64,000 nt of DNA, taken from positions 1 to 64,000 of the IMG/VR virus record IMGVR_UViG_3300037809_000520; one strand, written 5' to 3'. Under the pieces are notes generated by a model. The model was given only the letters and a program-made list of their open reading frames with translations. It had not been told where the DNA came from and made no database searches. This document shows positions 10,115 to 56,419 of this stretch, in pieces (within the stretch, counting starts at the first letter, position 1; each line of letters begins with the position of its first letter). The translations under genes were made by a program, and so were the position numbers. The stretch comes from a virus.

Positions 10115-11260
10115 TTAGATTATTCCAGCTAATTTTTTAAAGCGTGCGACCATTTCATCTGATTCAACAATTGGTTGTTTTTTAGTTGTTTTTGGAGCTG
10201 ATAAGTTTGAAGCACTACCTTTTGGTCTAATGCTTTCGCTAATAGATTTATTTGTAGTTTTGGATTTAATACTACCATCGATAGTTTCAAATACAAGTTT
10301 TACTTCTTTAATTGTTTCAGCTTTATCAAAAGCACTTAATACTTTAACCTTTTGGTTTTCTGATAAATTTTTACCGCGGAACACTTTGTTTGTGTAAAGT
10401 AACTTAGCATTTAATAAATTAATTTCATTTAATTCAGATCTTAATGTAGCAACAGTTTGCATTGCTTCATCTAAATCCTTTTTTAATTCATCTTTTGCTT
10501 CGTCTATTTCTTCTTTACCTTCATCAATGTCATCTTTAGCTTCAGCTACATCCACAGAAGTTTCTTCATCATCTTCTACTTCAATTTCTCCGTCTACGTC
10601 AACATCAACATCTACATCATCTTCGAATGATTCACCGGCTTCAATTTCACCTGCATTAACCATATCTTCGATTACGTCTTCGATAAATTTCTTAAGGTCT
10701 TCTTCAGACATATCTTCAAGGTCGATGTCTTCATCTTCCTCACCATCTATGTCTTCTTTCTCATCTTTTTCACCGTCTAAGTAGCCTTCTTCTTCAGCAT
10801 CAGTACGTTCGTCCTCTTTCAAGTCCTCTTTTTCGTCCTTAATACCGTCCTTGTAGCCTTCTTCTTCAGCGTCTGTACAAGCATTTTCTTTAAGATCTTC
10901 ATCTTTTTCTAATTCTGCTAAAATTTCATCTAAGTTCATATCATCTTCCTCTTTGATTTTACGCATTTTTTCAGTTTCAGTCTCAGCCTTATTATCAGAC
11001 TTACGATCGTCACCTTCGCGCTTTTCCTTTTTGGTCATATACTCTTTCTTTTCTGAAATCTTATCATCTTTTGCTTCATCTACTTCATCATAAGCTTCAT
11101 TCACTTCTTCTTCTTTTTCCATTTCTTCTAGTTTACTAGCAAACATGGCTTGAACTTGAGGTGAGAAAGCTTCTTCTAAAGCGACTTTAGCATTTGCTAT
11201 TGCAGATTCTTTGACTGCTTTAGCATCGGCGATAGCCTCTCGTAAAAAGTTTCTATTCAT
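10115..11260 (-). CDS. gp22: Prohead core scaffolding protein, gp22-like
   Basis: A 381-residue, very acidic, largely helical protein. The N-terminus (MNRNFLREAIADAKAVKESA) and the FSPQVQAMFASKLEEM segment match scaffolds of T4-like marine phages. Residues about 125-190 hold a duplicated unit, TDAEEEGY followed by DG-x-KDEKED, then Asp/Glu-Val repeats (VDVDVDVD). The C-terminal part is a coiled-coil and a basic tail ending ARFKKLAGII. It lies directly upstream of the capsid gene and downstream of the protease, the standard T4 order 21-22-23. The scaffold is expected to be digested by gp21 during head maturation. Confidence 0.82.
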   Translation of the reverse strand: MNRNFLREAIADAKAVKESAIANAKVALEEAFSPQVQAMFASKLEEMEKEEEVNEAYDEVDEAKDDKISEKKEYMTKKEKREGDDRKSDNKAETETEKMRKIKEEDDMNLDEILAELEKDEDLKENACTDAEEEGYKDGIKDEKEDLKEDERTDAEEEGYLDGEKDEKEDIDGEEDEDIDLEDMSEEDLKKFIEDVIEDMVNAGEIEAGESFEDDVDVDVDVDGEIEVEDDEETSVDVAEAKDDIDEGKEEIDEAKDELKKDLDEAMQTVATLRSELNEINLLNAKLLYTNKVFRGKNLSENQKVKVLSAFDKAETIKEVKLVFETIDGSIKSKTTNKSISESIRPKGSASNLSAPKTTKKQPIVESDEMVARFKKLAGII

Positions 11261-11450: not shown

Positions 11451-12053
11451 TTATATTATTGGACATTGTCCATGTGAGCATAATATCTCACTTAATATAC
11501 TATTTACATTCTTATATTTGTCTTGTGCTTTAAATTCTTTGCTTTCTCTTACTAAATGCATAAATGAATCTGGGTTGGAAGGAGTTGAAACAAAATCCCA
11601 ACACAATAATTCAAAATCATCTTGAACTTCCATCAATTCACCTTTTTGTTCTAATGAACCCATTCCTCTTGATGATACCCCAACAGTAATACCATTTTCA
11701 ACTAATGCTTTAAGTATATTTCCATTTGGTGTTGGTAGAATTTCAATTTTACCCATTACATTATCACCATCCCACCACATATCAGAAACATTATGTGATA
11801 CATTTTGAAGATTTATTACTGATGATTCTGGGTGGTCTAATTCCCCCATAGCTCTGTGTTCATCAACTAATACTCTATATTTGTCAATTTCTCTATCCCA
11901 TAATTCTTTAGAATAGTATCTACCATTTCCATTTTTTACTTCAGCAGTAGCTAGTACTCCCTCAACTAAAGGTAAACCCCTTTTCGAACGAGATTCATTT
12001 AGAGTTACTCCCTTAGGTTTAAATACGTGTGTTTCTATTAATAATTGACTCAT
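11451..12053 (-). CDS. gp21: Prohead core protease, gp21-like
   Basis: A 200-residue serine protease of the T4 gp21 family. NGRYYSKELWDREI (43-56), GELDHPESS (70-78, with His74) and VGVSSRGMGSL (124-134, with Ser127 or Ser128) match the family's conserved blocks and supply His and Ser of the active site. DFELLCWDFVSTPSNPDSF (about 145-163) is the typical C-terminal block. It cleaves scaffold, capsid and internal head proteins at (L/I)-x-E sites. Its own N-terminus has LNE (18-20), a likely self-processing site. Placed just upstream of the scaffold gene. Confidence 0.92.
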   Translation of the reverse strand: MSQLLIETHVFKPKGVTLNESRSKRGLPLVEGVLATAEVKNGNGRYYSKELWDREIDKYRVLVDEHRAMGELDHPESSVINLQNVSHNVSDMWWDGDNVMGKIEILPTPNGNILKALVENGITVGVSSRGMGSLEQKGELMEVQDDFELLCWDFVSTPSNPDSFMHLVRESKEFKAQDKYKNVNSILSEILCSHGQCPII

Positions 12054-12061: not shown

Positions 12062-13231
12062 TTATGCAGTTCTAAATTTTGATAATCCTGAATATGATTC
12101 TTTGTTATCATTACTGTTTTCATTTGAATTTTCGTTACTACCATTATTACTGTTGGCATTACTTTCTTCATTTCTAGGAGCCCAATCAGCATCTTGACCA
12201 TTTTGTCTTTTCCATGCTTCAGGATCCATTTCAGTAACCACTTTTTTGTATGATTTACCACACATTTTTTCATACATTTTTTCCATGCCCGCTTTTTTCT
12301 TTTCAAGAAGTTTTACTTCACGTTGCATTTCTTTCATTTTTTTCTTATCTACTAATTCAGATAAATTATCATCTTCAGTAACCATAGAAATTCTATCGTT
12401 TTTACTTTCAATAATTTCATCTAAAGCTTCGATTTGTAATTCTAAAGTAGCAATTTTTCCATTAGTTTCAATTTCCGCTAATTTGCTATCTGTCGTTTCT
12501 TTTTTTACTTTTTTCTTCTTGATTTTTGCCTTTGGTTTTTCTCCTAAAGGACTATTTTCTAATAAATCTACTAATGATATCATTTTATTTTCTTTTAATT
12601 CTAAATAACCAGTACCTACTTCACCTTCTGGGAAGTCTTTTTTTGTGGCTTCACCATATCCACCCCCAACACCGGGGTCTTTAACCATTTTACCTTTACC
12701 TAAAGCCGGCGCTTCTTCAGTGTATCCTATTCCTTTGATTCCAAATTGTGCTTCCTCAACATAATATAAAGGATTTTTATCCATATTCTTAATGACTAAA
12801 TCAATTAATTCTTGTTTAGTTTTATCTTTGTTAGCTTCATCTGTAAGTTCTGTAAAATACCCTTGACGAAACTGTTCACCAGCTACATTATTAAGCATTT
12901 TATCATCTTTATAATCATATCCTCTGTCAGGTGCCTGTAAATCAGTTACTCCTTTTGTAACCTTTTTTTCAATGGCTTTAGCCTCTTCTTCAGAGATTAA
13001 ATTCATGTTATCATCAAATAATTTAAACCAGTCTGGTTTTTTAGTATTTCCTGTTCCTACATAAAGGTTTTCAGCTATAATACTTCTACCAATTAGAGCA
13101 GATGATGCTTCCTTAAATCCAGCAGCGTTGCGTACTAAATTAGGATATTTTGATTTAACTTCTTTAAGGAAAATATGTTTACTACCTTTTCCTTTTTTAA
13201 TTTGATTGTATTGTTCTTGTAATGTTTTCAT
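12062..13231 (-). CDS. Conserved head-region protein, unknown function
   Basis: A 389-residue protein, Lys- and Glu-rich. The first 230 residues contain several Gly-rich turns (PGVGGGYGEA, EVGTGYLELKENK), then a long charged coiled coil (about 235-335, with KAKIKKKKVKKE at its start), and an Asn/Ser-rich tail. I do not recognise a family. Its place between the portal-associated genes and the protease suggests a prohead core or vertex component. IIAEN and LLEN are candidate cleavage sites for the prohead protease. Confidence 0.6.
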   Translation of the reverse strand: MKTLQEQYNQIKKGKGSKHIFLKEVKSKYPNLVRNAAGFKEASSALIGRSIIAENLYVGTGNTKKPDWFKLFDDNMNLISEEEAKAIEKKVTKGVTDLQAPDRGYDYKDDKMLNNVAGEQFRQGYFTELTDEANKDKTKQELIDLVIKNMDKNPLYYVEEAQFGIKGIGYTEEAPALGKGKMVKDPGVGGGYGEATKKDFPEGEVGTGYLELKENKMISLVDLLENSPLGEKPKAKIKKKKVKKETTDSKLAEIETNGKIATLELQIEALDEIIESKNDRISMVTEDDNLSELVDKKKMKEMQREVKLLEKKKAGMEKMYEKMCGKSYKKVVTEMDPEAWKRQNGQDADWAPRNEESNANSNNGSNENSNENSNDNKESYSGLSKFRTA

Positions 13232-17216: not shown

Positions 17217-17225
17217 TATAAATAT
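17217..17225 (-). promoter_or_regulatory. Putative late promoter box (ATATTTATA)
   Basis: Located 11 bases upstream of the portal start and touching the terminase stop codon at 17225. Confidence 0.5.
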
Positions 17226-18799
17226 TATAATAACCATTTTATGTCATGGGATTTCCCATCAATCTTCATTTCATATGGATTCTGTATAGAATTTATAGCA
17301 GAATGGCCACCAGTGTATGTTGTTTTGTTAGATTTTACACTACCTAATGTTGCTCTTGTCATATCTAGACTTTGTTGTTGAAATTTCAATGATGTGTCTC
17401 GTAGAAACATACCAATTCCAAATGACATAACCAAGTCATCGTTATAACCTGTTTGAGCTTCTGGTCTTCCATTTTTCCAAATGAATACTTTCATTTCTTC
17501 TATTAGGCGTTTTGAACGAATTGATACAGATTTATCACCCACAAATTCCCTAAATTTATTTATACAAAGAGGTCTTGTTCTCATTGACATAGTAAAACCA
17601 GGAACCATTTCTGAATTGCCTTCAAATACTCTTAAATATGATTCAGCTGTAAGTTGATCTGATTTTGGTGATTGATATAAATTTTTATATCCTCTTTCTA
17701 CAATTGCATCTAAAGTAGCCCAACCAATATTAGCATTTTCAACTACTAACATTGCATTATTATACTCTGTAGCCAATCCAGTTAAAAAATATCCAAACTC
17801 TTTAGGGGGCATTTGTCCTTTGTATTCAGCTACTTGTGTATTTGTTGCTATATCCATTACATGGCAGGCTGAATAATCTTTACCATCACCTCTAGCTACA
17901 TCTGCTACTACCATATATTCTCTAGAATAGTCTGCAGATTCCCAAATCCATAAATTTTGATCCACACCTCTTCTTTCCATTGGGTCTTTAATAGTTGTTT
18001 CATTTAAAAATTCAATCCACTCACCATAAAATACAATATCCCCTGATGTACTAAAATCACAATCACACTCTTGGGCTGCTAATCTAGGATCACCTAACAA
18101 ATCATCCTGTGCATCTCTCCATTCTTGGTTTCTTTCTGGGTGGACCCACCATGGGAGTTTTATGGGTAAAAATTGATTTTCTTTTGATTCAGCATTAACC
18201 CAAGTTTTATGAAACCAATTTCCAGTACCATAAGGTGTACTTAATACAATAGCACCACCACCCGTTGCTAGTGTTTGTTGAGCTGATGCCCAAATTTCTC
18301 CAATATTATCAATAAAGGCAGCCTCATCAATTAATAGTAAAGATACTGCTTCTGATCTACCAGCATCACTACTTGCTGAAGTTGCCTTAATTATTGATCC
18401 ATTACTAAGTCGAAGAGATAATTTATTATTTTCTTCTGCTTTAATAGATAACCATGAAGGTAAATTATCATACATAAATTTTACCTTAGTAACCATATTA
18501 CGTGCTGTTTCTTGTTTAGTCGCAATACATAATACATTTTTATCTTTATGAAACAACATTAACCATAAAGAATAACCTGCAGATAAAGTTGATATACCTA
18601 ATTGTCTTGATTTTAAAATAATTGAATAAGGATTATCTCTAACTAAATATAAAGCTTTTTCTTGGAATGGGTATAAATTAAATTGAATTCTTCCTCTTTG
18701 GGGGTGTTGAATAAAACAGTATTTTTTCATAAAATGAGCTGGGTCTTGGGCGCATCTTAAATATTCTTGTCTTATTATTTTTTTTAAATCCTCAGCCAT
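17225..18799 (-). CDS. gp17: Terminase large subunit, gp17-like
   Basis: A 524-residue DNA packaging motor. The ATPase half has the Walker A variant KSRQLGIST (63-71), an adenine-binding motif NLYPFQEKAL (41-50) and Walker B LLLIDEAAF (about 154-162). The nuclease half has VVADVARGDGKDYSACHV (about 297-314, first catalytic Asp), NANIGWATLDAIV and YNDDLVMSFGIGMF near the C-terminus (last catalytic Asp). Length and order fit T4 gp17. It cuts concatemeric DNA and drives it into the head. Immediately followed by the portal gene. No small terminase subunit is recognisable in the window. Confidence 0.95.
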   Translation of the reverse strand: MAEDLKKIIRQEYLRCAQDPAHFMKKYCFIQHPQRGRIQFNLYPFQEKALYLVRDNPYSIILKSRQLGISTLSAGYSLWLMLFHKDKNVLCIATKQETARNMVTKVKFMYDNLPSWLSIKAEENNKLSLRLSNGSIIKATSASSDAGRSEAVSLLLIDEAAFIDNIGEIWASAQQTLATGGGAIVLSTPYGTGNWFHKTWVNAESKENQFLPIKLPWWVHPERNQEWRDAQDDLLGDPRLAAQECDCDFSTSGDIVFYGEWIEFLNETTIKDPMERRGVDQNLWIWESADYSREYMVVADVARGDGKDYSACHVMDIATNTQVAEYKGQMPPKEFGYFLTGLATEYNNAMLVVENANIGWATLDAIVERGYKNLYQSPKSDQLTAESYLRVFEGNSEMVPGFTMSMRTRPLCINKFREFVGDKSVSIRSKRLIEEMKVFIWKNGRPEAQTGYNDDLVMSFGIGMFLRDTSLKFQQQSLDMTRATLGSVKSNKTTYTGGHSAINSIQNPYEMKIDGKSHDIKWLL

Positions 18800-19396
18800 T
18801 TATTTTTTCCCTATTTTCCAATACACCTTTCCGGAGATTATAGGTTTAAAATCTTGATTAACACCTAAACCTAAACCATATATTTGTTTCTTTTTATCTT
18901 TATATAAAATTTCTCCACCTAAGTAATTAATTTGATCAGATCTACCAGCTACTCCTACTCCCCAATAAAATTCTCTATTATTAAGATATATTTCTTGGGT
19001 TAATGTTGTTGTTGGTAATAATATATCTGATTTTACTTGTCTTGAAAATATTTTGTTTTGGGTTATTGTATCTGTTATAGTTACAACTCCTAAAGAATCT
19101 AATACTATTTCATCTATGTAAACATTTTTAGCATAATAATCTTTTAATACCTCTAATGTATCTATTGGGGTTTTTATTATAATAGTATCATTTTCATATA
19201 TAGTTACAATTTTTTCAATCCATTTAGGAACATATTCTATCTTATTAATAGTAATGGTATCCCATTTAGTTTCAATCTTTGTTATAATTGTAGGTTCACT
19301 AATAGTGGGATTAGAAGAACAGCTCCTTTGTAATAAAAGGAGTACAACTAAAACTACAATGAGTAGAAATTGAATATTTTTAAAGAAGACCTTCAA
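18800..19396 (-). CDS. Membrane-anchored protein, unknown function
   Basis: A 198-residue protein with one strong N-terminal hydrophobic segment (FLLIVVLVVLLLLQRSC, about residues 11-27), preceded by Lys. The Cys followed by Ser-Ser-Asn gives a weak lipobox-like ending, but Gln-Arg before it is unusual. The rest is Thr/Ile/Val-rich and predicted beta, then an aromatic region with GVGVAGRSDQINYLGGEILY that resembles the strands of a small beta-barrel. It overlaps the preceding gene by 17 bases and abuts the terminase gene. A lysis role (spanin-like) is possible but not shown. Confidence 0.55.
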   Translation of the reverse strand: MKVFFKNIQFLLIVVLVVLLLLQRSCSSNPTISEPTIITKIETKWDTITINKIEYVPKWIEKIVTIYENDTIIIKTPIDTLEVLKDYYAKNVYIDEIVLDSLGVVTITDTITQNKIFSRQVKSDILLPTTTLTQEIYLNNREFYWGVGVAGRSDQINYLGGEILYKDKKKQIYGLGLGVNQDFKPIISGKVYWKIGKK

Positions 19397-19745
19397 GCTC
19401 TTTTTTAATTTTTGTTAATTCTCTTAAGCGATCTGTAAGTTTTTGTTTTTCAGAGCCCTCAGCATTTTTCCACTTTTTAACTACTCGCTTCATTTCAGCT
19501 GCTGTTTGTTGAAGTTTTGATGCTAATTTAGATATTGAATCTCCTTTTTTAGCTCCCTTTATGGCTTTTTTATCCATTTCATCCTCATCATCATCTTCTT
19601 CTTTCATTAGATCTTGAGTTTTTTCTAATTCATTGTTAAAATCAGCTTGAGCATCAGCTTTAGCATTAATCTCATCTGCTGATTCTGCTTCTAATAATTC
19701 AAGAATTTCTTCTTTAATGGAGGATTTTAATTCTGATTTTTTCAT
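19380..19745 (-). CDS. Acidic helical protein with capsid-targeting-like N-terminus
   Basis: A 121-residue protein starting MKKSELKSSIKEEILELLEA, the second tag type of this genome, with prohead protease-like sites ILE (14-16) and LLE (17-19) before Ala. The same opening is present in proteins at 33796 and inside the one at 26295. The rest is acidic coiled coil (KEEDDDEDEMDKKAIKG) with a Lys-rich C-terminus. I infer a protein packaged in the head. A promoter-like box lies just upstream at 19760-19768. Confidence 0.6.
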   Translation of the reverse strand: MKKSELKSSIKEEILELLEAESADEINAKADAQADFNNELEKTQDLMKEEDDDEDEMDKKAIKGAKKGDSISKLASKLQQTAAEMKRVVKKWKNAEGSEKQKLTDRLRELTKIKKELEGLL

Positions 19746-20986: not shown

Positions 20987-22330
20987 TTATTTTAATAATT
21001 GTTCTCCTACTAATGTTCCTTGTGCCCCCGATACTGTAATACCTCTGGCACTTAAAGCGTCACCCACAAAATGTACATTCGGATATTTTGTTAAACTTAA
21101 ATCATTATAATTAACTAGGGGTTCTGGTGATAGATATTTTACTTCTGGGATGTAAATTCCCCAATCATCTTTAAGTGTTGGAAATACTTTTTTCATATCC
21201 TCAATGAAATCTTCTATATAATCATAATAACCTTTAAATGATTTTTTAACTATATCTAAAGATTTAGTGGGCATAGCATCAACTAAATCACCTTCACTTG
21301 TCATTCCTCTTTCACGTGATGGGCTATAATATAAACCCGAATTAGCTTTACGAGCATATCTACCAATACCTTTACTACAATCCATCCATTGTGAATTTAC
21401 TAATTTAACTAATTCTCTAGACCAATCAAATGGTTTATCAATGCCTTGAATTTCCATTAAAATCCCAAAATTAGTCATATTATTTCTATGTTCTTCTCCT
21501 TTTTTAGCATGTCCATTGTAGCTAACATCTCCATACGTTTGCTCAACGGCAACATATGCTGCATTGTTGTTTGTACAGAAAGAACGTAGTGATACTCCTT
21601 TGTCTTCGAATTTACGATATAACTTAAAATCATAACTTACATCAATTAGTTTTTGGAAGTGGTTTTGTGGTGCTTCAAATCGAACACCTATTTGTACTGG
21701 CTTTGGTTCTGTAGGAAGATCATATTTTTCAGCTAATTTCTTACCGAAGTCAATTCCTGATTTGCCAACACCAAATATAAGTTTATCATATGATAAGGTG
21801 AAATTATCTACTTCACTAGCATTGGTTACCACTATTTGTGAATCAAATTTAATATCGGTTACTTTTTCTTCCCATCTAAATTCTACACCACCATCTACTA
21901 AATAATTATACCAATTTTTACCTATTTCATGTAAGTAATCTGTACCTACGTGCCATACAGGGAATAAGCGTAAGCCAAAATAGGGTTTAATAAAATCTGG
22001 TTCTGCTTGGGGGTCTGAGCATTGTACTTCCTCAGGCTTGGGATGGAATCTTTTAAAATTATTAATTACTTGATCAAATAATTCCATTGCTTTTTCATCT
22101 CCTGTGTATTTTGATAATTGACCACCAATGGATGTATGGTAAGTTAATTTACCATCAGACCAACCACCTGCTCCTAAGAAACCAGTCATTACTTCTTCAG
22201 GTTTTCTATCATATGGGTTTTTACCCATATCAATAATAGTGATATTACCTTTAAAGTTGTTATCTACAAGTTTTGTAGCGGCATTTACTCCTGCTACACC
22301 TGCTCCTACAATTACTACATTTTTACTCAT
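20987..22330 (-). CDS. FAD-dependent oxidoreductase (dehydrogenase-like)
   Basis: A 447-residue flavoprotein. The N-terminal Rossmann motif is VVIVGAGVAGVNAATKL (5-21) with the G-x-G-x-x-G dinucleotide signature, followed by an acidic residue at the end of the second strand (ITIIDMG). Near residues 50-65 GFLGAGGWSDGKL is characteristic of the NAD(FAD)-utilising dehydrogenase group. The C-terminus has NVHFVGDALSARGITVSGAQ, the usual second FAD-binding block (G-D). Cytoplasmic; substrate unknown. It starts the metabolic cluster and has a promoter-like box CGTATATTAA upstream. Confidence 0.85.
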   Translation of the reverse strand: MSKNVVIVGAGVAGVNAATKLVDNNFKGNITIIDMGKNPYDRKPEEVMTGFLGAGGWSDGKLTYHTSIGGQLSKYTGDEKAMELFDQVINNFKRFHPKPEEVQCSDPQAEPDFIKPYFGLRLFPVWHVGTDYLHEIGKNWYNYLVDGGVEFRWEEKVTDIKFDSQIVVTNASEVDNFTLSYDKLIFGVGKSGIDFGKKLAEKYDLPTEPKPVQIGVRFEAPQNHFQKLIDVSYDFKLYRKFEDKGVSLRSFCTNNNAAYVAVEQTYGDVSYNGHAKKGEEHRNNMTNFGILMEIQGIDKPFDWSRELVKLVNSQWMDCSKGIGRYARKANSGLYYSPSRERGMTSEGDLVDAMPTKSLDIVKKSFKGYYDYIEDFIEDMKKVFPTLKDDWGIYIPEVKYLSPEPLVNYNDLSLTKYPNVHFVGDALSARGITVSGAQGTLVGEQLLK

Positions 22331-23216: not shown

Positions 23217-24089
23217 TTAATAATCCCATTCTTCATCATCTTCTTCATCATCATAACCATAATCATCATCATCATCATAATCTTCTTCATCTTCATACTC
23301 AGCATCATAATTAAACATATCCTCATCTGATTCAGTATAATTTCCATCTTTACTATCTATATAATCTAATATTTTTTCTAAAGCAAATTCAGTTAATCGT
23401 TCATATATTTTTTCTTCATCTCCTGAAGATGACATAATTTTACTAAAAATACTTTTTAATGTCGATTGTATTTCTGAAGGAATATCTGTTGAATTAATTA
23501 AAAATGAATGAGCAGGACCTGCTGTTTCAGTACCATATCCTTTATAATAGAAATCTCCATCATTATAATAACGATAAATAATTTTATTTATAGCTCTTAA
23601 TAATTCACCTTCAATTGTATCAGCATTACCTTGTCCAGGTACTAATTTTTCAAAGTAATCATTACTTCTTTTTTCTAATTCACCTCCAACCCATTCTTTA
23701 ATCTTTTTCTTTTTTGATATTGCTGTGTCTTTACACATCTCATCAAATTCAGGTCCGTCTTGAGAGCATGCCCATTTTCTTTGTTTTTCAGAGAAAACTT
23801 CTTTTAGTTTTTGATTTTCATTTAACTTAAACTGTTGTGTAAGTTTTTCCCAAGAATAGTTTTTATCAACCCACCCTTGTAATTTTTCTTCATCCCAATC
23901 TTTCTTAAATTTATTAGCATTATTAAGATCTGTTAAGATTTTTAATTTTTTAGCAGTACGTTCGTTCCACTCTTTATTTGATAATTCCTTTTCTGCTTTT
24001 CGACTTACATCTATGGCATCCCACCTTGATTCGGTTGATTCTGTTAATCTACCTTCTGCTAAATATTTTTTTAAATCGAAATTTTTCAT
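23217..24089 (-). CDS. Putative internal head protein with capsid-targeting tag
   Basis: A 290-residue protein. I chose the ATG at 24087-24089 rather than a longer open frame because it gives the shared tag MKNFDLKKYLAEGRLTES and because the extension overlaps the upstream gene. L-A-E (10-12) before Gly is a match to the T4 prohead protease site. The body is highly charged and helical; the last 45 residues are almost entirely Asp, Glu and Tyr (DYDDDDDYGYDDEEDDEEW). EEKLQGWVDKNYSWEKL is the clearest ordered part. Function unknown; I infer packaging into the head and ejection with the DNA. Confidence 0.65.
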   Translation of the reverse strand: MKNFDLKKYLAEGRLTESTESRWDAIDVSRKAEKELSNKEWNERTAKKLKILTDLNNANKFKKDWDEEKLQGWVDKNYSWEKLTQQFKLNENQKLKEVFSEKQRKWACSQDGPEFDEMCKDTAISKKKKIKEWVGGELEKRSNDYFEKLVPGQGNADTIEGELLRAINKIIYRYYNDGDFYYKGYGTETAGPAHSFLINSTDIPSEIQSTLKSIFSKIMSSSGDEEKIYERLTEFALEKILDYIDSKDGNYTESDEDMFNYDAEYEDEEDYDDDDDYGYDDEEDDEEWDY

Positions 24090-24099
24090 TTGTTTTATT

Positions 24100-24606
24100 T
24101 TACGGTGTAGTAGAATATATATATTCGTTAAATTGAAGATTGATATACTTGTCATATGGCATCGTACCCACATTATAAGCAAATTTATCTTTACCAATAG
24201 GAGCTTCATTTTTATTAATAAACCGTTTACGTTTTGTAACAAAATCTATTAAATATTGCTCTGGGTCTTCTTGTTTTTTTAATTGAGGGTGATTAGCTAA
24301 TATTGGTTTAATTCTTTTTACTATATCTTCTACCGAATCTCTTTCGTATGCCATTTCGGCTATATCTTCTTCTTTAATTACACCTTCAGATAAATCTATA
24401 TATGATTTCAAATCATCAAGTAAATCTTTATCTGTAGAGTTTTCATAGGCATCAGGTTCAAAATTTCCATCGAGTTCATCTATATAATCTTCAATATATT
24501 CATCCTCTATGCCTTTTTCTTTTCCTAATTTCCTAACTCTTGAAGCAATTTCATCTGCAGTTACACCTTCTGTAAGGAATTGTCTAAATCTGTATAGTTC
24601 TTTCAT
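24100..24606 (-). CDS. Putative internal head protein with tag variant
   Basis: A 168-residue acidic protein beginning MKELYRFRQFLTEGVTADE, a divergent version of the tag with cleavage-like L-T-E (11-13) before Gly. Most of the body is acidic and helical (residues about 25-110), followed by KKQEDPEQYLIDFVTKRKRF and a non-charged tail with several Tyr. No enzymatic motif. It lies 10 bases upstream of the gene starting at 24089 and 7 bases after the previous member of the array. Confidence 0.6.
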   Translation of the reverse strand: MKELYRFRQFLTEGVTADEIASRVRKLGKEKGIEDEYIEDYIDELDGNFEPDAYENSTDKDLLDDLKSYIDLSEGVIKEEDIAEMAYERDSVEDIVKRIKPILANHPQLKKQEDPEQYLIDFVTKRKRFINKNEAPIGKDKFAYNVGTMPYDKYINLQFNEYIYSTTP

Positions 24607-24613
24607 TTTATTT

Positions 24614-24964
24614 TTATATTATATCTTGTATTTTAGTATATTGATCTGCAGTTAGAACATCAAAAGTATAATCTTCAAAATCACCACCATCATAAAGTAT
24701 AGTTGATACTGCTCCAGCAATATCATTTCTTAATTCTTTTGAATCAGCATTTAAAGCTTTAACTGCCTTAACATAATCTTTAAATGTGTTCATAGCTTCA
24801 TCGGATACTTTTCCAAATTCAGCATCAACACCACCAGCATCAATTACATCATCATTTCCTACTTTAATTTCTCCTGCTGCCCATTCTGACCAGTAGTCTC
24901 TTAAATTATCTTCTTTTAGTAGCCTACCTTCAGCTAAATATTTTTTTAAATTGAAATTTTCCAT
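24614..24964 (-). CDS. Putative internal head protein with capsid-targeting tag
   Basis: A 116-residue protein; the ATG at 24962-24964 was chosen over a longer frame (start 24997) because it yields the common tag MENFNLKKYLAEGRLLKED and avoids overlap with the upstream gene. The L-A-E site (10-12) is followed by an acidic, helical body of about 95 residues with DAGGVDAEFGKVSDEAM and YDGGDFEDYTFDVL. No recognisable fold. Cleavage at L-A-E would release a protein of about 104 residues. Confidence 0.62.
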   Translation of the reverse strand: MENFNLKKYLAEGRLLKEDNLRDYWSEWAAGEIKVGNDDVIDAGGVDAEFGKVSDEAMNTFKDYVKAVKALNADSKELRNDIAGAVSTILYDGGDFEDYTFDVLTADQYTKIQDII

Positions 24965-24980
24965 TTTTATTTTATTTATT

Positions 24981-25382
24981 TTATCTCCAAAATTCACTTC
25001 CTTCTACCATCCAACGTTCAAAATCTTTATCAGAATGTACAAACTCTACACCTTTTGGATTTCCTATAAAGTAATCATCAAGCATTTGTTCTGTATCAAT
25101 TTCAAATCCTAAATACTCTGACATTTTATCTTCATTAGTTTCTAAAAATTTGTCTCCATTTTCGGATGTAAAGTCTTTTTTATCTTCTTCAACGTTTGCA
25201 GGATCAGTAAAATATCCATAGTTAATATAATCTATAAATTCTTCTTCTAATTTTTTTACATCAACATCCATGTATTTGGTATAACTAAAGAAATCAAGTA
25301 ATTCTTGTCCTCTTAGCTTAGTGATGTCTTCTTTTAATAGTTTACTTTCAGCTAAATACTTTTTTAAATTGAAATTTTCCAT
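24981..25382 (-). CDS. Putative internal head protein with capsid-targeting tag
   Basis: A 133-residue protein with tag MENFNLKKYLAESKLLKED, the L-A-E site being followed by Ser. The body is acidic (DVKKLEEEFIDYINYGYF, EEDKKDFTSENGDKF) and ends with an aromatic-rich segment (DFERWMVEGSEFWR). Unrelated in sequence to its neighbours past residue 20. It starts 11 bases after the preceding gene and is followed 16 bases later by the next start. Confidence 0.62.
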   Translation of the reverse strand: MENFNLKKYLAESKLLKEDITKLRGQELLDFFSYTKYMDVDVKKLEEEFIDYINYGYFTDPANVEEDKKDFTSENGDKFLETNEDKMSEYLGFEIDTEQMLDDYFIGNPKGVEFVHSDKDFERWMVEGSEFWR

Positions 25383-25393
25383 TTACTTTTATT

Positions 25394-25762
25394 TTAAAAG
25401 TTAAGTGCTATTTTTTTAGCTGTTTCTCCTTCTTCAGGGGTTATTAATCCTTGTTTAACATGAACATCAATAGCATCTAGAACAGACTCACGATCTGCTC
25501 CTGTTCCAACATCTAAATTTGCTTGTTTTACCCACTCGTCTTCTAAAGCCATGTAATCTTCAATAGACATTGTTTTAGGAGCGGGTAAAATATTACTTTT
25601 AATCCATCCAGCATCTTCTACATCAAAGCCAAAATCATCCGGTGAGGTAAGTACATCTTTAATGTAGTCATTACCACCAAACATAATAGTGGTGTCAACC
25701 ATTATCTCTTCTTTTAATAGTTTACTTTCAGCTAAATATTTTTTTAAGTCAAATTCTTTCAT
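25394..25762 (-). CDS. Putative internal head protein with capsid-targeting tag
   Basis: A 122-residue protein with tag MKEFDLKKYLAESKLLKEE and the L-A-E site at 10-12. The body differs from other members: TTIMFGGNDYIKDVL and an EF-hand-free acidic region, then EEGETAKKIALNF at the C-terminus. It contains both helical and beta-prone stretches and no Cys. No function can be assigned. Confidence 0.62.
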   Translation of the reverse strand: MKEFDLKKYLAESKLLKEEIMVDTTIMFGGNDYIKDVLTSPDDFGFDVEDAGWIKSNILPAPKTMSIEDYMALEDEWVKQANLDVGTGADRESVLDAIDVHVKQGLITPEEGETAKKIALNF

Positions 25763-25773
25763 TGTTATATTTT

Positions 25774-26295
25774 TTATATAAAATTAGATAAACCCCATTC
25801 CCCATCTCCTTCTGAGCTAGGCATATAATATTTTATTAGGGGTTTGAATATTTTCTCCATACCCGATTTTCTAACCTTAATAATTTCATCTTCGATTCTT
25901 GTTGATCTAATACTACTTATAAGCTTTTCAAATTCGGGTGTGATTTCATCCAATTTGAAGGTGAAAATAGCGTAATTCCCCATCATATCAACACCCGGTT
26001 GTTTCCTTCTTTCGTTTATGTATTTTCCTTTAAAAAAGGAATCACCTATTGTTTTTACAAATACATCTGTGGGTGTATCTTCATCACCAACAGATCCATT
26101 AACCCTTATAGCTGTTACACCCCCTATTGGTTTCTCCTCAAACACCCTTGATATTTCCTCTTTGATTATTTTACGTAGTTCCGATTTTTTCATTTTATTT
26201 GGTTTTATAAAATCTTTATACCTTCCTGTTTTAATTAAATGTTCTTCCAATAGAGGATTTTTTGATATAAATGTTTTTAAGTCAAAATCTTTCAT
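25774..26295 (-). CDS. Tagged protein with two different N-terminal tags in tandem
   Basis: A 173-residue protein. It begins with the first tag type (MKDFDLKTFISKNPLLEEHL) and then, at residue 35, carries the second tag type (MKKSELRKIIKEEISRVFEE) that starts other genes. The gene therefore looks like a fusion of two tagged openings, or the true start could be the internal Met at 26193. The body (about 55-173) has alternating beta strands (AIRVNGSVGDEDTPTDVFVK) and basic patches, with a folded-domain look, unlike the acidic members. Function unknown. Confidence 0.6.
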   Translation of the reverse strand: MKDFDLKTFISKNPLLEEHLIKTGRYKDFIKPNKMKKSELRKIIKEEISRVFEEKPIGGVTAIRVNGSVGDEDTPTDVFVKTIGDSFFKGKYINERRKQPGVDMMGNYAIFTFKLDEITPEFEKLISSIRSTRIEDEIIKVRKSGMEKIFKPLIKYYMPSSEGDGEWGLSNFI

Positions 26296-26315
26296 TTTTA
26301 TTTTATTGGTTTATT

Positions 26316-27347
26316 TTAATTAAATCTTCTGCTTATATTAGTTGCTTCACCAGCTACTACTTTACCATTTTGTAAAAGAACAACTCCATTAGCTGAATCA
26401 CCATCAGCTTCTGAATTGTTAATAAGTCTATTTAGTTCTTCATAATACATATCCAAATTATCTTCTATGTGTTTATTAAAGACACTTTCCCAATTATCTC
26501 CAGCTGCATCTAATTCATCTGTAAGTCCAAATTTTCTTTCAAAGTGTTCGATATCCCAATAACTTTTAATAGAATCTTTTATATATTCTTCTTTACTATC
26601 ATAAACAATATAATCAGGACCTTCATCATTCCAAAATATCATGTGGTACATTCCTGGTTTAAGGTCAATCATATATTCATCACTAAATTGTTCTTCTTCA
26701 GAAGAAGCATCATGTTCAGCTCTATTTCCTATATAAAGTTCTTGATAATCATCATGGCTAAGTATTGTAGCCATATCTATATCTTCTTTTAATAGCTTAC
26801 CTTCAGCTAAACCTGATAGTTTATCTTTAGCCCATTCTTTAGCCAATTTTACGGCTTCATCTTTAGAATAAAATCCTTGTTCTACAGCATTCATTATCTC
26901 ATAATAGTCATCGCTTACAATTTCTTCAGCAGATGCATCTATAATACCCTGAAGATATACTTCAGGTTCTACTACCATAGCACCCATTGCACCTTCAAAT
27001 TCATCTTCCATTTCTGGGAAGTCTATAGCTTCATTTAATAGCTTACCTTCAGCTAAATATTTTTTTAAATCGAAATTTTCCATTTGGGTTTGTTTTATAT
27101 TATGTAATTTATCATACCATGCTTTATATTCGGGATCTCTAAGAAGATTAGCTGTAACCATATCTGACATTGCATCAAATCCACCATTATCAAAACGATC
27201 TAGTTCATACTGAGCATCATCTGGGTCTTTAACGTATTTCATGATAATATCAAGTAACGCATCCATACTTTCATCATCAAAGACTGTAGGTTCGTTTTCA
27301 AATAGCTTACCTTCAGCTAAATATTTTTTTAAATCGAAATCTTTCAT
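26316..27347 (-). CDS. Fusion of two or three tagged internal head proteins
   Basis: A 343-residue protein. It starts MKDFDLKKYLAEGKLFENE, but a second complete tag, MENFDLKKYLAEGKLLNEA, begins at residue 89 (27083), and a third partial copy, LAEGKLLKEDI, at about residue 179 (near 26812). Just before the second tag the text HNIKQTQ looks like a translated intergenic gap. Each tag would be a prohead protease site, so the product may be cut into three pieces of about 75-160 residues. Bodies are acidic and unrelated. An alternative is separate genes with internal starts. Confidence 0.62.
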   Translation of the reverse strand: MKDFDLKKYLAEGKLFENEPTVFDDESMDALLDIIMKYVKDPDDAQYELDRFDNGGFDAMSDMVTANLLRDPEYKAWYDKLHNIKQTQMENFDLKKYLAEGKLLNEAIDFPEMEDEFEGAMGAMVVEPEVYLQGIIDASAEEIVSDDYYEIMNAVEQGFYSKDEAVKLAKEWAKDKLSGLAEGKLLKEDIDMATILSHDDYQELYIGNRAEHDASSEEEQFSDEYMIDLKPGMYHMIFWNDEGPDYIVYDSKEEYIKDSIKSYWDIEHFERKFGLTDELDAAGDNWESVFNKHIEDNLDMYYEELNRLINNSEADGDSANGVVLLQNGKVVAGEATNISRRFN

Positions 27348-32911: not shown

Positions 32912-33796
32912 TTATTTTATCAATCCTGCTAATTTTGGAAATCTAGATAATGATTCATCTAACGCAAATCCAATTTCAGCATCTTCAGCTGGATTGTCTT
33001 TTGTTACATTAACTATACTATCAGAGTCAACTTCATCACCACCAGAACCAACGAATCTTTCAGGATCCATTCCTTGTTCTTCATTAGTAGCTACAACGTG
33101 TGCTCTAGTATAATAAGTAATTGTATTTCCTATTTGATCAAGTAACTTTTCATCACCCAGAGATTTTGCCTCTTCTTGAGCTTTAGTTAAAAGACCTAAT
33201 ATAGCTGCTACATCCGAAGACTCACCTGCTAGTTCAGAATCAACTTCAATTTCTGATTTTGAAGATTCATCATCAATATCAACTTCGTCTTCAATGTCGA
33301 TGTCAATGTCTTCATTGTCTTCAACATCTACTTCTTCAGCTTCAGTTAAATTCCACCATTCAGGTTTAGAATCACCGGATGCAAATTCATCTTCTAAATG
33401 ATCTAAAAAATCTTCTCTTGAAGAGGTTTCAAATTCATAATCATCTTTATCATCATATCTATTTGGGAAGTAATCGTCTGCCCAATCTTTAATAACATCC
33501 ATTGGTACATCCATTTTGTAGTACCTTTTCATATCACCTTTGATTTCTGGGTACATATCATCACCTTCAAAATTCAATAGTTCTTCTTTAATAACATCAT
33601 CCTTAAAATCCTTTTTAAGTTTAGCTAATTTTTCTTCGTTGTCTTTAATATCTTTTTCAAGATTTTTTATGTGGTCTCTATCATCACGAATAGCACCTTC
33701 CATACGTTTTTGTTCTTCACTGTTTCCTTTTTTAGAATCTTCAGCTTCAGATAAAAACTGACTCTTGATGATTTCTTTTAATTCCGATTTTTTCAT
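32912..33796 (-). CDS. Acidic tagged protein, putative internal head protein
   Basis: A 294-residue protein starting MKKSELKEIIKSQFLSEAE, the second tag type, with L-S-E (15-17) before Ala, much like the T4 internal-protein cleavage site. It is strongly acidic: residues about 150-200 are almost all Asp, Glu, Val and Ile (VDVEDNEDIDIDIEDEVDID). The C-terminus returns to a capsid-scaffold type ending (LSRFPKLAGLIK), identical in style to that of the gp22-like scaffold (FKKLAGII). It may be a second core protein. A promoter box lies 33 bases upstream. Confidence 0.65.
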   Translation of the reverse strand: MKKSELKEIIKSQFLSEAEDSKKGNSEEQKRMEGAIRDDRDHIKNLEKDIKDNEEKLAKLKKDFKDDVIKEELLNFEGDDMYPEIKGDMKRYYKMDVPMDVIKDWADDYFPNRYDDKDDYEFETSSREDFLDHLEDEFASGDSKPEWWNLTEAEEVDVEDNEDIDIDIEDEVDIDDESSKSEIEVDSELAGESSDVAAILGLLTKAQEEAKSLGDEKLLDQIGNTITYYTRAHVVATNEEQGMDPERFVGSGGDEVDSDSIVNVTKDNPAEDAEIGFALDESLSRFPKLAGLIK

Positions 33797-35353: not shown

Positions 35354-37908
35354 AATCCTAATGCTTTAAGTTGGTTGATTGTATCCTGGGTTGATGTATG
35401 TAATATACCAATACCCCCAGCTTCAATCCATTGTTCTATATTTGATTTTCTATCATCAATTAAAATATGGTTAGGTTCAGCATAATTCTTTTTATTATAA
35501 GCTTGGGCTAATGTTAATTTAACTCCAGGCATGTTATTTCTAACCCATAATCTTTTTCCTAATCTTGAGGTTTGTGATCTTGATGGGGATGATAGTAATT
35601 CTACATCATAATCTTTAATATAATTCCAATAGTCTTTACCATCTTCCATCCAAGGCATCCCTACCCAAAATCCAACTTTACCTTTACCATCAATTAATTC
35701 CCAAAATCCATCTTCCCCAAACTTTTTTTCATATTCTCTGGGTGGTATTCCTTTAGAGTACTTTTCAAATGATTTATCAAAATCTGTTAATACACCATCC
35801 ATATCTGAATATATTTTATATTCCATAGGGGGTGAAGATACAACCTCTTCTTCAGGTATCAAAACTCCTTCAGCAATTTCTCTAGCAAATTGATTTAAAC
35901 CAAATGGATCTTTACCTAATTTGGGATCAAATCCCTGTTTTTCATCTAAACTATCAGTCCAATTTCTAAATGTCATTGTACCTTTTAAATTAGCTTCAGC
36001 TTCAATATCATTTAACTCATCATCTTCTTGAGTATTTGTTGTTGTAATATTACCTAATCTACCTTCTAGATTTTGGGTATGATGAACCATTTCATGGGAA
36101 AATGAACGTACAATATCTTTTGGATGTCTGCCTTCAGTGTATAATACAATTGTTTGAGAATTTGGATCATAATAAGCAGTTTTACCTAAAAACTCTTGAG
36201 CATTACTACGATCACCATTTATGAATTTTAAATTAGGTAAGGGTTGAATATTCATCCCCTTATCTATCATATGCTTAGTTAATTTAGCTATCTCTTTTTT
36301 AATATCTATATTTTGAGAATATGAAGCATTTTCATTTAATGGTTTTCCTCTTTTAGAATATCTTCCTTCTACTTCAAAATTATTACTTAATGTAGACAAT
36401 ACCTCTTGTGTTTTTTGGGTTTCTCTATATAATCCCCCTGTCCAGTGATCTTTAACTGTTGAAAAACCCCAAGGCCCTCCTGCTTCTTTAATTTTATTCT
36501 CAACCCACCCACTTAAATCATAATAATTAGATTTTTGTTTAATTATAACAAATGTTTCTCCTTTTTCAAGTAAATCCTGGTCTGTTAATTGATCCATAAA
36601 ATTTTTTGCTCCCTCTAAAGTTTTTGAAAATGAGATATTTTTTCCATTATAATTTGTCCAAATATATTCTCTTAAATCTGGGATTTTGGTTGCATTCTTA
36701 ATGGATAAAATTCTATATATTGTTCCAAAATCTTTATAGCCTAATTGTTTTAATTTTAAAACAAATACTCTATTAATTGAAGAACTATCATGTACTCCTC
36801 CTTTTCCTAACCAATCTTCAACATATTTATCTAAATCTATTTCTTCATTTAAGTTTTCTTTTAAAACTGTTCCTTCAGGAAGTTCTAATGAATCAAAAAA
36901 ATCTTGAGCTATTTTTAATAGTTTTTCTTTTATTTCTGGTTTTAAATTAAGATCATCCCAAACATCTTTTACTAATGTATCTTGTATATCAAAACTATCG
37001 ATTACATCTTTTTCAATATTTTCTTGAAGAGCGATTACAGGGGTAGATGTTTTAAAATCTTTTTTACGCATTACTGTTTTTGCATACATTTCAATATCAT
37101 CATCAGTAACATTTATAGCAAATGGTATGTTTATGTTATTATTAAAATCCTTAACAACAGCATCAAAATCATCATCTATTTTAGATAGTGGTTTACCATG
37201 TTTTTTATGTAAACGTTTAAACATCCCTATAAGTTCAGCTACTGTAATTGGTTTTTTATTTCTTTTATCATTTAATCTATCTAAAAAATGCCTAGTAAAT
37301 TCAATATCAATACCCAATTTATTAAATAATCCATCAGCATATTTTTCAATTGAGTCTAATTGGGGTTTAGTAATTTCTTCTTTAATAATTGGTCTTAGAA
37401 TATTAAATACATCTTCTTTTTCTTTATCATCTAATTCATCTGGTAGGAATGGTGCTAATTCATCGGATGATACTTTGGCTGCTTTTCTAGCATTGGTACC
37501 ACTCATACCTTTATCTTGAGTAATTTGTACTTTTACTTTCATATTAGGGTAAGCTGATTCTATATTTTTAGTTCTATTTTCAATATCTTCTAAATCATCA
37601 TCTCTTCCTTCTCTTCCTCCTATAATAAAATAAACCTCATCTTCAGGATTATTTTTCCCTAAACGAATAATATCACCAATTGGTGATTCAGCAGGCTCAA
37701 TCTTAACTTTCATGGGTAAATATTTTTTAAATATATCCCAAATTAAAATAGCTTCAGCTTGACTTACCCCATTTCTTTCCTTACTTCCAACATAGATAAT
37801 AAATTCATCTATTTCAGGGAGAGATTTTAATGCTTTTTTTACTACCTCTAAATGACCTTTAGTAGGTGGTTTAAAACCACCTCCGTATGCTGCTATTACT
37901 TTACTCAT
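35350..37908 (-). CDS. Multi-enzyme protein: nucleotidyltransferase, ART-like, zinc peptidase-like, HAD phosphatase
   Basis: An 852-residue protein with several domains. (1) Residues 1-145: nucleotidyltransferase of the NMN adenylyltransferase / cytidylyltransferase type, with GGFKPPTKGHLEVVKKAL (T/H-x-G-H motif ending at His19) and the second motif GMSGTNARKAA (134-144). (2) About 385-510: IYRILSIK (Arg399), NISFSKT (Ser426-Phe-Ser) and RETQKTQEVL (Glu502), the R-S-E order of an ADP-ribosyltransferase, though the Q/E-x-E element is imperfect. (3) FSHEMVHHTQ (603-612): H-E-x-x-H zinc peptidase signature, with EAEAN downstream as a third-ligand candidate. (4) About 697-852: HAD phosphatase with SDMDGVLTDF (701-710). 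N-rich, L-N-E type junctions (PLNENAS, ENLNEEI) could be protease cut sites. The gene overlaps both neighbours by 4 bases. Confidence 0.72.
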   Translation of the reverse strand: MSKVIAAYGGGFKPPTKGHLEVVKKALKSLPEIDEFIIYVGSKERNGVSQAEAILIWDIFKKYLPMKVKIEPAESPIGDIIRLGKNNPEDEVYFIIGGREGRDDDLEDIENRTKNIESAYPNMKVKVQITQDKGMSGTNARKAAKVSSDELAPFLPDELDDKEKEDVFNILRPIIKEEITKPQLDSIEKYADGLFNKLGIDIEFTRHFLDRLNDKRNKKPITVAELIGMFKRLHKKHGKPLSKIDDDFDAVVKDFNNNINIPFAINVTDDDIEMYAKTVMRKKDFKTSTPVIALQENIEKDVIDSFDIQDTLVKDVWDDLNLKPEIKEKLLKIAQDFFDSLELPEGTVLKENLNEEIDLDKYVEDWLGKGGVHDSSSINRVFVLKLKQLGYKDFGTIYRILSIKNATKIPDLREYIWTNYNGKNISFSKTLEGAKNFMDQLTDQDLLEKGETFVIIKQKSNYYDLSGWVENKIKEAGGPWGFSTVKDHWTGGLYRETQKTQEVLSTLSNNFEVEGRYSKRGKPLNENASYSQNIDIKKEIAKLTKHMIDKGMNIQPLPNLKFINGDRSNAQEFLGKTAYYDPNSQTIVLYTEGRHPKDIVRSFSHEMVHHTQNLEGRLGNITTTNTQEDDELNDIEAEANLKGTMTFRNWTDSLDEKQGFDPKLGKDPFGLNQFAREIAEGVLIPEEEVVSSPPMEYKIYSDMDGVLTDFDKSFEKYSKGIPPREYEKKFGEDGFWELIDGKGKVGFWVGMPWMEDGKDYWNYIKDYDVELLSSPSRSQTSRLGKRLWVRNNMPGVKLTLAQAYNKKNYAEPNHILIDDRKSNIEQWIEAGGIGILHTSTQDTINQLKALGL

Positions 37909-38702
37909 GAATTTAAGAATTTTTCTATTCTCATTTGTGCCTCTTCTTTAGACATAGTATATTCAATTACATCATATATAAAATCATCACTTAACATAGT
38001 TTGAATTTCTTCTTTATCTTTAGCTTTTCTTTCATCAGATCGTTTTTGTTGAGCCGGTGTTTTAGGTTTAGTTCCTGTTGGTTTAAAGGGAGTTAGATAT
38101 TTTTTAATAATTTTTTCTATATCTTCCATTCTATTATCTAATGTATTAGCTACTGCTATGAAATTATTACCAAATAAATCAGCATATTTAGGTAAATTAT
38201 CTGTTACATCTTTCCAAGTACGCATCACAATAGCAGGTGCTAAACTCCTATCTTTACCTTCTGATTTTTCATATCTATCTTGATTTTGAGTTAATGAACG
38301 TTCTAAATCAGTATAAACATAAAGCATCATTACTTTATATCCCGCTTCTTCTAATTCATTTTTTAATTTTGCTGTTTGATTATATGAAGCTCCTGTACCA
38401 TCTAAAATAAATGATTCTTTTCCTTCAATAGTAGCTTCTACATCACCCTTAAATTGTTTATTAGCAGCTGCCATTTGTTTAGCTTGCTCACTTCTTTCTT
38501 CAGGAGTAGCATTTTTTAAATCTAAAGTTACATTAGCTTTTTGCAACATTGGAACATAGATATCATCTACATTTAATATCTTTAAACCCGCTAAATCTAA
38601 ACCACGTAAAATATACCCTTTACCTGCTCCTGGAGCTCCTGCTAATATAATTGCTTTAGGTTCAGCAACTGCTTCTTTTAATAATTGAATTAATGAAATC
38701 AT
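37905..38702 (-). CDS. P-loop kinase, polynucleotide kinase/zeta-toxin-like
   Basis: A 265-residue P-loop protein. Walker A is LAGAPGAGKGYILRGL (20-35), with ILNVDDIYVP as the substrate-binding Asp region and FILDGTGASY as the next conserved segment. The arrangement fits polynucleotide-kinase or zeta-toxin-like kinases that phosphorylate a small substrate or a nucleic acid end. It starts MISLIQLLKEAVAE, where L-K-E (8-10) before Ala resembles the capsid-targeting tags. C-terminal Lys-rich region, about 205-265. It overlaps the multi-enzyme gene by 4 bases. Confidence 0.72.
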   Translation of the reverse strand: MISLIQLLKEAVAEPKAIILAGAPGAGKGYILRGLDLAGLKILNVDDIYVPMLQKANVTLDLKNATPEERSEQAKQMAAANKQFKGDVEATIEGKESFILDGTGASYNQTAKLKNELEEAGYKVMMLYVYTDLERSLTQNQDRYEKSEGKDRSLAPAIVMRTWKDVTDNLPKYADLFGNNFIAVANTLDNRMEDIEKIIKKYLTPFKPTGTKPKTPAQQKRSDERKAKDKEEIQTMLSDDFIYDVIEYTMSKEEAQMRIEKFLNS

Positions 38703-56071: not shown

Positions 56072-56419
56072 TTATTTTTTCATTAACCCTGCTATCATAC
56101 CCATATCTACTTCTCCAGCTGGTAGTGTTCCATTACTAGAATCATATCCACTTTGGGGTGAAAATGATTGAGGGACGTCAGCAGAAGTAAAAGATTTTGC
56201 GGTATCACCTAAGATGTTTGAGTATGCTGCTCTTTTTTCTTCAGCACTCATTTGAGGTTGTTGGGGTTGAATTTGTTCTATAACTGGGGCTATTGGTTGA
56301 GCTGCTATTGTTGTAACTTTAGGAGTCTTAATAGCTTCCAGTAAAATTTCCTTCAATTCTTCTTGAATTGCTTCTTTTACTGCTTCTTTTACTAGCGTTT
56401 TTAATTGTGATGACTTCAT
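56072..56419 (-). CDS. Small protein with helical N-terminal tag
   Basis: A 115-residue protein starting MKSSQLKTLVKEAVKEAIQE, an amphipathic helix related to the second tag type (MKKSELK). Sites such as LLEA (26-29) could be cut by the prohead protease. The remainder is Pro/Gln-rich and flexible (QIQPQQPQMSAEEKRAAYSN) with a Ser/Gly end and DMGMIAGLMKK. Although it lies in the baseplate block, the tag suggests it may enter the head. Promoter box 8 bases upstream. Confidence 0.55.
   Translation of the reverse strand: MKSSQLKTLVKEAVKEAIQEELKEILLEAIKTPKVTTIAAQPIAPVIEQIQPQQPQMSAEEKRAAYSNILGDTAKSFTSADVPQSFSPQSGYDSSNGTLPAGEVDMGMIAGLMKK

Follow-up and report, generated by a model that had tools for sequence, protein, structure and literature searches.

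A conserved leader-coding DNA block is the likely site of body exchange in a putative internal-protein locus of uncultured T4-like phages

We analysed 64,000 nucleotides (nt) of uncultured viral DNA (positions 1 to 64,000 of IMG/VR record IMGVR_UViG_3300037809_000520; hereafter the window), part of a 67-kilobase (kb) record whose minus strand encodes a T4-type head module. An island of seven open reading frames (ORFs), 23217-27347, lies about 4 kb upstream of the gene for the large terminase (TerL); in it, six full copies of a leader, or tag, M(K/E)xF(D/N)LKKYLAE-GKLLKE, open minus-strand genes or modules. The proposal that the DNA block coding for this tag, found on more than 100 unrelated small proteins, is a site of swapping of the protein bodies behind it largely holds in comparisons of related sequences. 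It is carried by features visible in the sequences: conservation of the tag DNA, bodies unlinked to it, junctions inside the tag, shuffled neighbours, and a protease-type motif that is paired in tags and depleted in bodies. The island is, very probably, a locus for internal proteins (ejection proteins) in a T4-like phage of Bacteroidetes, in which the leader would target the protein and be cleaved, and the leader DNA would serve as the crossover tract.

The first-pass annotation had described near-identical repeated DNA blocks in this region, and the repeats are there. The 20-mer CAGCTAAATATTTTTTTAAA occurs with at most three mismatches at 24056, 24931, 25349, 25729, 27050 and 27314; a seventh match, with two mismatches, lies at an unrelated site (54194). 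These seven matches compare with 0.14 expected, and 0 of 100 shuffles gave as many as seven; in a repeat search the copies merge into families of 32-78 nt. Five of the seven ORFs begin M(K/E)xF(D/N)LKKYLAE-(G/S)(K/R)L. Five of the full copies supply the opening codons of minus-strand ORFs; the sixth, 27030-27083, falls at an internal ATG of ORF 26316-27347. The partial copy reported near 26796-26812 was also recovered: it encodes LAEGKLLKE only, inside ORF 26316-27347, and the repeat search found 26776-26811 to be 94% identical to 27022-27057 over 36 nt. The earlier inventory was thus right about the six copies; it had overlooked the leaders of 25774-26295 and 24100-24606, and that 26316-27347 is a single ORF with two full tags and one partial one. 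The leaders of the island are:

24036-24089, minus strand: full tag, type A, gene 23217-24089, MKNFDLKKYLAE-GRLTES
24565-24606, minus strand: alternative leader, type B, gene 24100-24606, MKELYRFRQFLTEG
24911-24964, minus strand: full tag, type A, gene 24614-24964, MENFNLKKYLAE-GRLLKE
25329-25382, minus strand: full tag, type A, gene 24981-25382, MENFNLKKYLAE-SKLLKE
25709-25762, minus strand: full tag, type A, gene 25394-25762, MKEFDLKKYLAE-SKLLKE
26242-26295, minus strand: diverged leader, gene 25774-26295, MKDFDLKTFISKNPLLEE, followed by a MKKSELRKIIKEEI-type stretch
26784-26810, minus strand: partial tag, cleavage half only (LAEGKLLKE), at the joint of modules 2 and 3 in ORF 26316-27347
27030-27083, minus strand: full tag opening module 2, internal in ORF 26316-27347, MENFDLKKYLAE-GKLLNE
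27294-27347, minus strand: full tag opening module 1, at the start of ORF 26316-27347, MKDFDLKKYLAE-GKLFEN

The exact 20-mer was present in at least 118 stretches of IMG/VR, and a motif scan of these found tagged proteins, often in tandem, in at least 111 loci; the loci compared are metagenome fragments. Because the 20-mer sample was selected by tag DNA, we took two tag-independent samples, one anchored on TerL and one on the FAD-type gene beside the island. Tag matches, a few of them weak, were present in 25 of 33 FAD-anchored loci with at least 3 kb upstream. This partial sample of IMG/VR yielded 108 body families, formed by single linkage, which chains some multi-domain proteins and in which some members with another leader are truncated ORFs. 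The 107 representatives have M-x-x-F-x-L-x-K-Y-L-x-E in common, with a mean column identity of 5% over the whole alignment.

Related phages vary in the content, order and number of their tagged genes. The first-pass annotation had claimed that recombination at the tag swaps bodies and had named such a comparison as the one that could refute it; core genes proved to be kept and tagged content to be replaced at TerL identities of 95%, 92% and 90%. In the relative with a 99% identical TerL (L129), the island bodies and their order are unchanged. In the three more distant ones (L135, L137 and L142), the flanking core genes are still in order and the seven-gene island is replaced by two, one and three tagged genes, respectively; only one window body is recognisable there, at about 50% amino-acid identity.

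Breakpoints fall within the tag both where the upstream DNA is kept and where the body is kept, which, together with neighbours that are shuffled far more than in controls, supports the exchange claim. Five loci (L121, L099, L110, L120 and L060) agree at 94-100% of the 90 nt upstream and at 89-97% of the 36-nt tag, and then fall to 18-38% identity in five unrelated bodies; 112 pairs have homologous upstream DNA and different bodies. In leader-swap pairs, including window 24981-25382 and L255 1361-1762, body DNA identity is high and declines to the background level inside the leader, near the codons for LAE-G or KE. At body identities of 0.80-0.90, homologous upstream DNA is found in 14% of tagged and 66% of control pairs, and homologous downstream DNA in 6% and 55%; at 0.90 and above, the upstream and downstream values are 24% and 32% for tagged pairs, compared with 90% and 92% for controls. 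This loss of neighbours gave Mann-Whitney U p values of 6.6e-5 and 9e-4 at the family level. More than one leader class was assigned by pattern in 19 of the 108 body families, some of these cases being truncated or chained ORFs. Mean tag identity is nearly the same for tags with the same body (0.900), on the same contig (0.890) or with neither in common (0.883), so the tags appear to form a common pool without detectable homogenisation in one genome. An ORF resembling RecA is present in all five long relatives, in two of them above the curated cut-off, which makes homology-directed exchange plausible; RecT was absent from these five. From the sequences we infer homology-directed recombination as the route. 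The wider earlier claim of a modular system for acquiring and packaging new proteins largely stands, with two qualifications: body exchange is supported, packaging draws on the analogy with T4 and on protease-motif statistics, and the recombination route is read from sequence.

At the sequence level, the tag DNA is conserved beyond the peptide, as the first reading of the window had suggested and as codon bias toward TTA and TTC and an excess of one 18-mer now bear out. Among 46 non-redundant tags from the tag-independent samples, Leu6 is TTA in 41 of 41 and Leu10 in 42 of 44 (background 66%), Ala11 is GCT in 31 of 36 (background 51%), and Phe4 is the rarer TTC in 57% (background 17%). Tags with the peptide LKKYLA have an identical 18-mer in 14 of 20 cases, where codon usage would predict 2.8 (that of bodies) or 1.5 (that of gene starts). 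As a control, the share of the top codon at invariant Leu columns averages 0.68 in TerL and 0.66 in the FAD gene, and none reaches 0.95. Since the tags are related to one another, P values here serve as a rough guide. An A-rich stretch of about 20 nt upstream is also conserved above other genes (14.4 bits versus 6.9 over the last 20 nt). In the full set, scored with the Bacteroidetes consensus only, none of the 150 tags had a Bacteroidetes-type promoter upstream.

The bodies of the window have no significant similarity to one another (best E = 0.2), in agreement with the earlier statement that the coding sequences between the blocks are unrelated. They recur as modules in other combinations in other phages, at 73-95% amino-acid identity. 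The genes of the island are:

23217-24089, minus strand: tagged protein, 290 amino acids (aa), with a very acidic C-terminus
24100-24606, minus strand: 168-aa protein with the type B leader; the second module of L086 901-1488 matches its residues 66-168 at 90% identity
24614-24964, minus strand: tagged protein, 116 aa; its body recurs as one module of a 436-aa string, L091 6197-7507 (73% identity)
24981-25382, minus strand: tagged protein, 133 aa; body 81% identical in amino acids to L255 1361-1762
25394-25762, minus strand: tagged protein, 122 aa; its body recurs as residues 82-183 of L075 361-912 (89% identity)
25774-26295, minus strand: 173-aa protein with a diverged leader
26316-27347, minus strand: three-module ORF, 343 aa; modules 2 and 3 are found separately elsewhere

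The body of 24981-25382 carries the type B leader in L255 1361-1762. The C-terminal VGGELE domain of 23217-24089 is the sole window body common to tagged genes at the same place in relatives (48-56% amino-acid identity). Modules 2 and 3 of 26316-27347 recur in L071 (90%) and L075 1898-2419 (95%). The joint 26784-26810 is a sharp border at the Leu codon: the DNA that starts there is a near-identical match to the tag and body of L075 1898-2419, and the DNA preceding it is unrelated. More generally, joints in multi-module proteins retain the second half of the tag (LAEGKLLKE, FEEGKLLKE, LSEGKLFEE). Such internal joint motifs number 19, spread over 14 of the 177 non-redundant proteins with a leader; shuffled sequences gave 2.7, and the rate is tenfold that of untagged proteins. 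Two of the 19 seem to be chance matches. Strings with a single tag comprise two to five modules linked only by the cleavage half of the tag, as in the 436-aa protein L091 6197-7507 and the 343-aa ORF of the window. All six (L/I)xE motifs of 26316-27347 are the pairs within its two full tags and its partial tag. Recombination at the cleavage half of the tag may build head-loaded polyproteins, in which one targeting signal would carry two to five unrelated modules that the prohead protease would cut into separate injected proteins. We give this idea an even chance of being correct.

The motif (L/I)xE is the cleavage motif of gp21, the prohead protease of T4. Nearly all of 188 tags end in [LI]xE, and 165 of the 188 have a second [LI]xE within eight residues, compared with 5% of body windows. 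The residues at the second site vary (LLKE, LFEE, LYE, LNE) and fall in two registers. Bodies that meet the protease would be expected to avoid its motif, and the 107 tagged bodies are depleted in it (133 versus 196 expected, z -5.0), whereas 76 control proteins are not (203 versus 193 expected); the reversed motif is not depleted in tagged bodies. Enrichment is seen in the presumed scaffold, 10115-11260 (17 versus 9.0 expected), and in 12062-13231 (12 versus 5.5), and the N-terminal region of the major capsid protein (8428-10071) has LLE-G and ILE-N motifs. T4 ipII and ipIII begin MKTYQEFIAE-A. The tag shares with this T4 capsid-targeting sequence (CTS), MKTYQEFIAE, only the pattern M-x-x-aromatic...[FYIL][LI]xE, which is too short for a homology test. 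By this analogy, the tag most likely works like the T4 CTS, and tagged proteins would be packaged in the prohead, cleaved and injected.

Taken together, these observations suggest a scheme. The first half of the leader (MxxFDLKKY) would target the protein to the prohead core, and the second half (LAE-GKLLKE) would present two sites to the gp21-like prohead protease. The protease would remove the leader in the head, and the body, stored with the DNA, would enter the host at infection. The leader DNA, from about -20 to +54 around the ATG, would be the shared stretch of homology. Crossovers there between co-infecting phages could place a new body behind an existing leader, or a new leader on an existing body. 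A crossover in the second half, with the upstream body in frame, could yield a multi-module string that the protease can cut.

Exchange is not the only conceivable origin of a repeated tag. Under an old gene duplication, the bodies would have diverged past recognition, and selection on RNA or on translation starts would have held the tag DNA constant with no exchange at all. The extension of the conserved block into the A-rich start region fits such selection, and tag DNA unlinked to body or contig is also expected from it; ordinary gene-start codon bias, however, fails to explain the tag codons. The same body with different leaders, and the same upstream DNA with different bodies, cannot come from divergence, so duplication is refuted as the sole explanation, and we find the account barely credible. 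Selection at the DNA level could act in addition to exchange. Alternatively, illegitimate recombination may occur at arbitrary points and only joins with working leaders survive, which would make the tag a functional constraint and not a crossover site. Some swaps do join leader classes with little common DNA (type A and type C), and bodies are mosaic at module borders too. Yet the tag DNA is conserved above the need of the peptide, as expected of a homology tract, most junctions fall at short stretches common to both parents (e.g. GAAGGTAA or AAAGAAGA), and the five long relatives encode the RecA-like ORF. We regard this account as unlikely. That the bodies are almost without annotated domains would suit a leader with another purpose, such as docking to a common cell partner or marking proteins for degradation, with accidental (L/I)xE pairs. 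Pairing in two registers with different residues, depletion in tagged bodies only, a presumed scaffold enriched in the motif, an island placed among the head genes and leaders that resemble those of T4 ipII and ipIII all argue otherwise, and such a purpose seems quite improbable.

Several points weigh against an internal-protein locus with exchange at the leader DNA, which we nevertheless prefer. Tags have no excess similarity within contigs (60 of 300 permutations), and recent gene conversion in one genome is unsupported. The part of the sample chosen by the exact tag core inflates tag identity; the codon test used tag-independent loci only. The P values treat related tags as independent. The (L/I)xE motif is that of T4 gp21 and is presumed for the protease of this phage, and the variants [LI]...E and [LI]..E are mildly depleted in bodies too (z -3.2 and -2.2). 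Finally, some of the exchanges may have arisen by illegitimate joining, with selection retaining those that left the leader working.

What the bodies do is suggested mainly by analogy. Searches of the window bodies and the 107 representatives with PHROG, Pfam and PADLOC returned essentially nothing beyond isolated weak matches; Zeta_toxin matched one of the 107 (E=3.9e-17). AlphaFold2 models of 26316-27347 and 23217-24089, built from 7-8 sequences, are too weak for a fold search (mean predicted local distance difference test scores of 58 and 57), and the low-confidence stretches of the 26316-27347 model coincide with the tags. The tail of 23217-24089 (window 23217-23310) is rich in D, E and Y, very acidic and conserved in all homologues; it is possibly a DNA mimic. 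A PADLOC profile for a type II restriction enzyme weakly matched residues 1-46 of L075 361-912, comprising the tag and a DFKNPILDKYL module (E=4e-4), which may be chance.

Other leaders were noted. A zeta-toxin-like P-loop kinase in the window (37905-38702) starts MISLIQLLKEA, another leader class, and such kinases bear the DLKKYLAE tag in L088 228-1052 and L029 3641-4195; this kinase is a possible packaged enzyme. Short leaders like the T4 CTS (MIKFQDILNEA, MINLLDILSEA, MRLLELLREA) occur in L172 (5587-5916 and 5913-6338) and L126 (2261-2575), before bodies that bear the DLKKYLAE tag in other phages. An N-terminus MKKSEL(K/R)xxIKEEI with several (I/L)xE motifs recurs in window 19380-19745, 32912-33796, 56072-56419 and 25774-26295 (residues 35-54); found on unrelated proteins, it may be a further head-targeting leader.

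The head module includes TerL, portal, gp21-like prohead protease, presumed scaffold and major capsid protein. The genes most relevant to the island are:

8428-10071, minus strand: major capsid protein (PHROG 138, E=6e-72)
10115-11260, minus strand: presumed scaffold or core protein (gp22 position), between the protease and capsid genes
11451-12053, minus strand: T4 gp21-like prohead protease, the presumed processing enzyme (PHROG 207, E=3.8e-59)
17225-18799, minus strand: TerL, the syntenic anchor for tag-independent sampling
20987-22330, minus strand: FAD-type oxidoreductase-like gene adjoining the island, the second tag-independent anchor

Among the head genes of the sampled relatives, the FAD/NAD oxidoreductase-like gene 20987-22330 is strongly conserved (70-84% amino-acid identity). 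A member of the Bacteroidetes is the probable host, because the capsid protein is closest to that of Flavobacterium phage immuto (59% identity), a cultured phage with tag variants directly upstream of TerL. Immuto has tag variants in gp076, gp077 and gp092 and encodes a gp21-like protease, KNV73_gp070. The phages of the group are uncultured relatives of T4, and their hosts are probably marine or freshwater Bacteroidetes. A DNA similarity search of window 22-29 kb found no match in cultured phages, and neither did tblastn with the tag peptide, a search that is uninformative given the short query and the low-complexity filter. In 257 gigabases of bacterial genomes, the tag core had only two matches, both in contigs of metagenome-assembled genomes (MAGs) carrying the same phage locus. 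These contigs, L284 and L285, were assigned to a Pelagibacter MAG and to a second bacterial MAG, apparently through mis-binning of viral DNA.

Shuffling of internal proteins behind a conserved leader is known in T-even phages (Repoila et al., 1994; reference 27 of PMC12373910), so the tag locus is not a new kind of system. Repoila et al. (1994) reportedly found that the T-even ipI, ipII and ipIII loci vary in gene number, order and identity; an 11-aa leader and flanking homologies are said to have been proposed as mediators of the shuffling, and the flanking repeats, of about 70 base pairs, reportedly contain an early promoter and an inverted repeat. The likeness lies in unrelated small bodies behind a conserved N-terminal signal. 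Here, in contrast, the homology is the leader-coding DNA itself plus the A-rich start region, and no promoter-like repeat was found (0 of 150 tags with the Bacteroidetes consensus). The leader sequence also differs, and there are 108 body families in our partial sample, interchangeable leader classes and multi-module strings.

At least 10 T-even internal proteins have been reported, with unrelated small bodies and a conserved N-terminal capsid-packaging signal, and the three characterised ones of T4 all block type IV restriction enzymes (PMC12373910). From T4 Ip1-3, anti-defence roles of the bodies described here can be proposed by analogy (PMC12373910). The short N-terminal CTS of T4 internal proteins is removed in the prohead by gp21 (PMC9958956, PMC7411985); the CTS goes back to Mullaney and Black (1996), whose work is covered in PMC9958956, PMC9024508 and PMC7411985. 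Like it, the tag is a short N-terminal peptide beside a cleavage site, in a phage that encodes a gp21-like protease. Unlike it, the leader has 12 + 6 aa and two putative sites instead of one, and is unalignable with the CTS beyond the hydrophobic/aromatic pattern. In phage P1, the injected Dar anti-restriction system uses an N-terminal packaging signal, for which the first 30 residues of DarB suffice (PMC9024508). Dar N-termini lack a consensus, and no cassette exchange is reported in PMC9024508. Ejection proteins of SPN3US have propeptides that the prohead protease removes at an xE-type motif (AXE) (PMC7411985). Those propeptides are long (about 110-130 aa) and are not a shared, swapped cassette. 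Rhs/CDI-type toxin loci have a constant N-terminus and an exchanged C-terminus. They resemble the tag system in having a conserved delivery end and an exchanged payload, and are unrelated to it in sequence and delivery route.

Since the bodies of injected internal proteins have nothing in common, such proteins are difficult to detect; a leader that can be recognised offers direct access to them, and the same bodies can be traced across phages and leader classes. The locus would be a natural case of a protein-sorting signal that doubles as a recombination tract, and its leaders might be used as they are to direct foreign proteins into the heads of Bacteroidetes phages. Set beside the T-even loci, it is a larger version and a clear variant of a known system, new in its clade and leader, in a probable crossover tract inside the leader DNA, in interchangeable leader classes, in more than 100 body families and in module strings with one signal.

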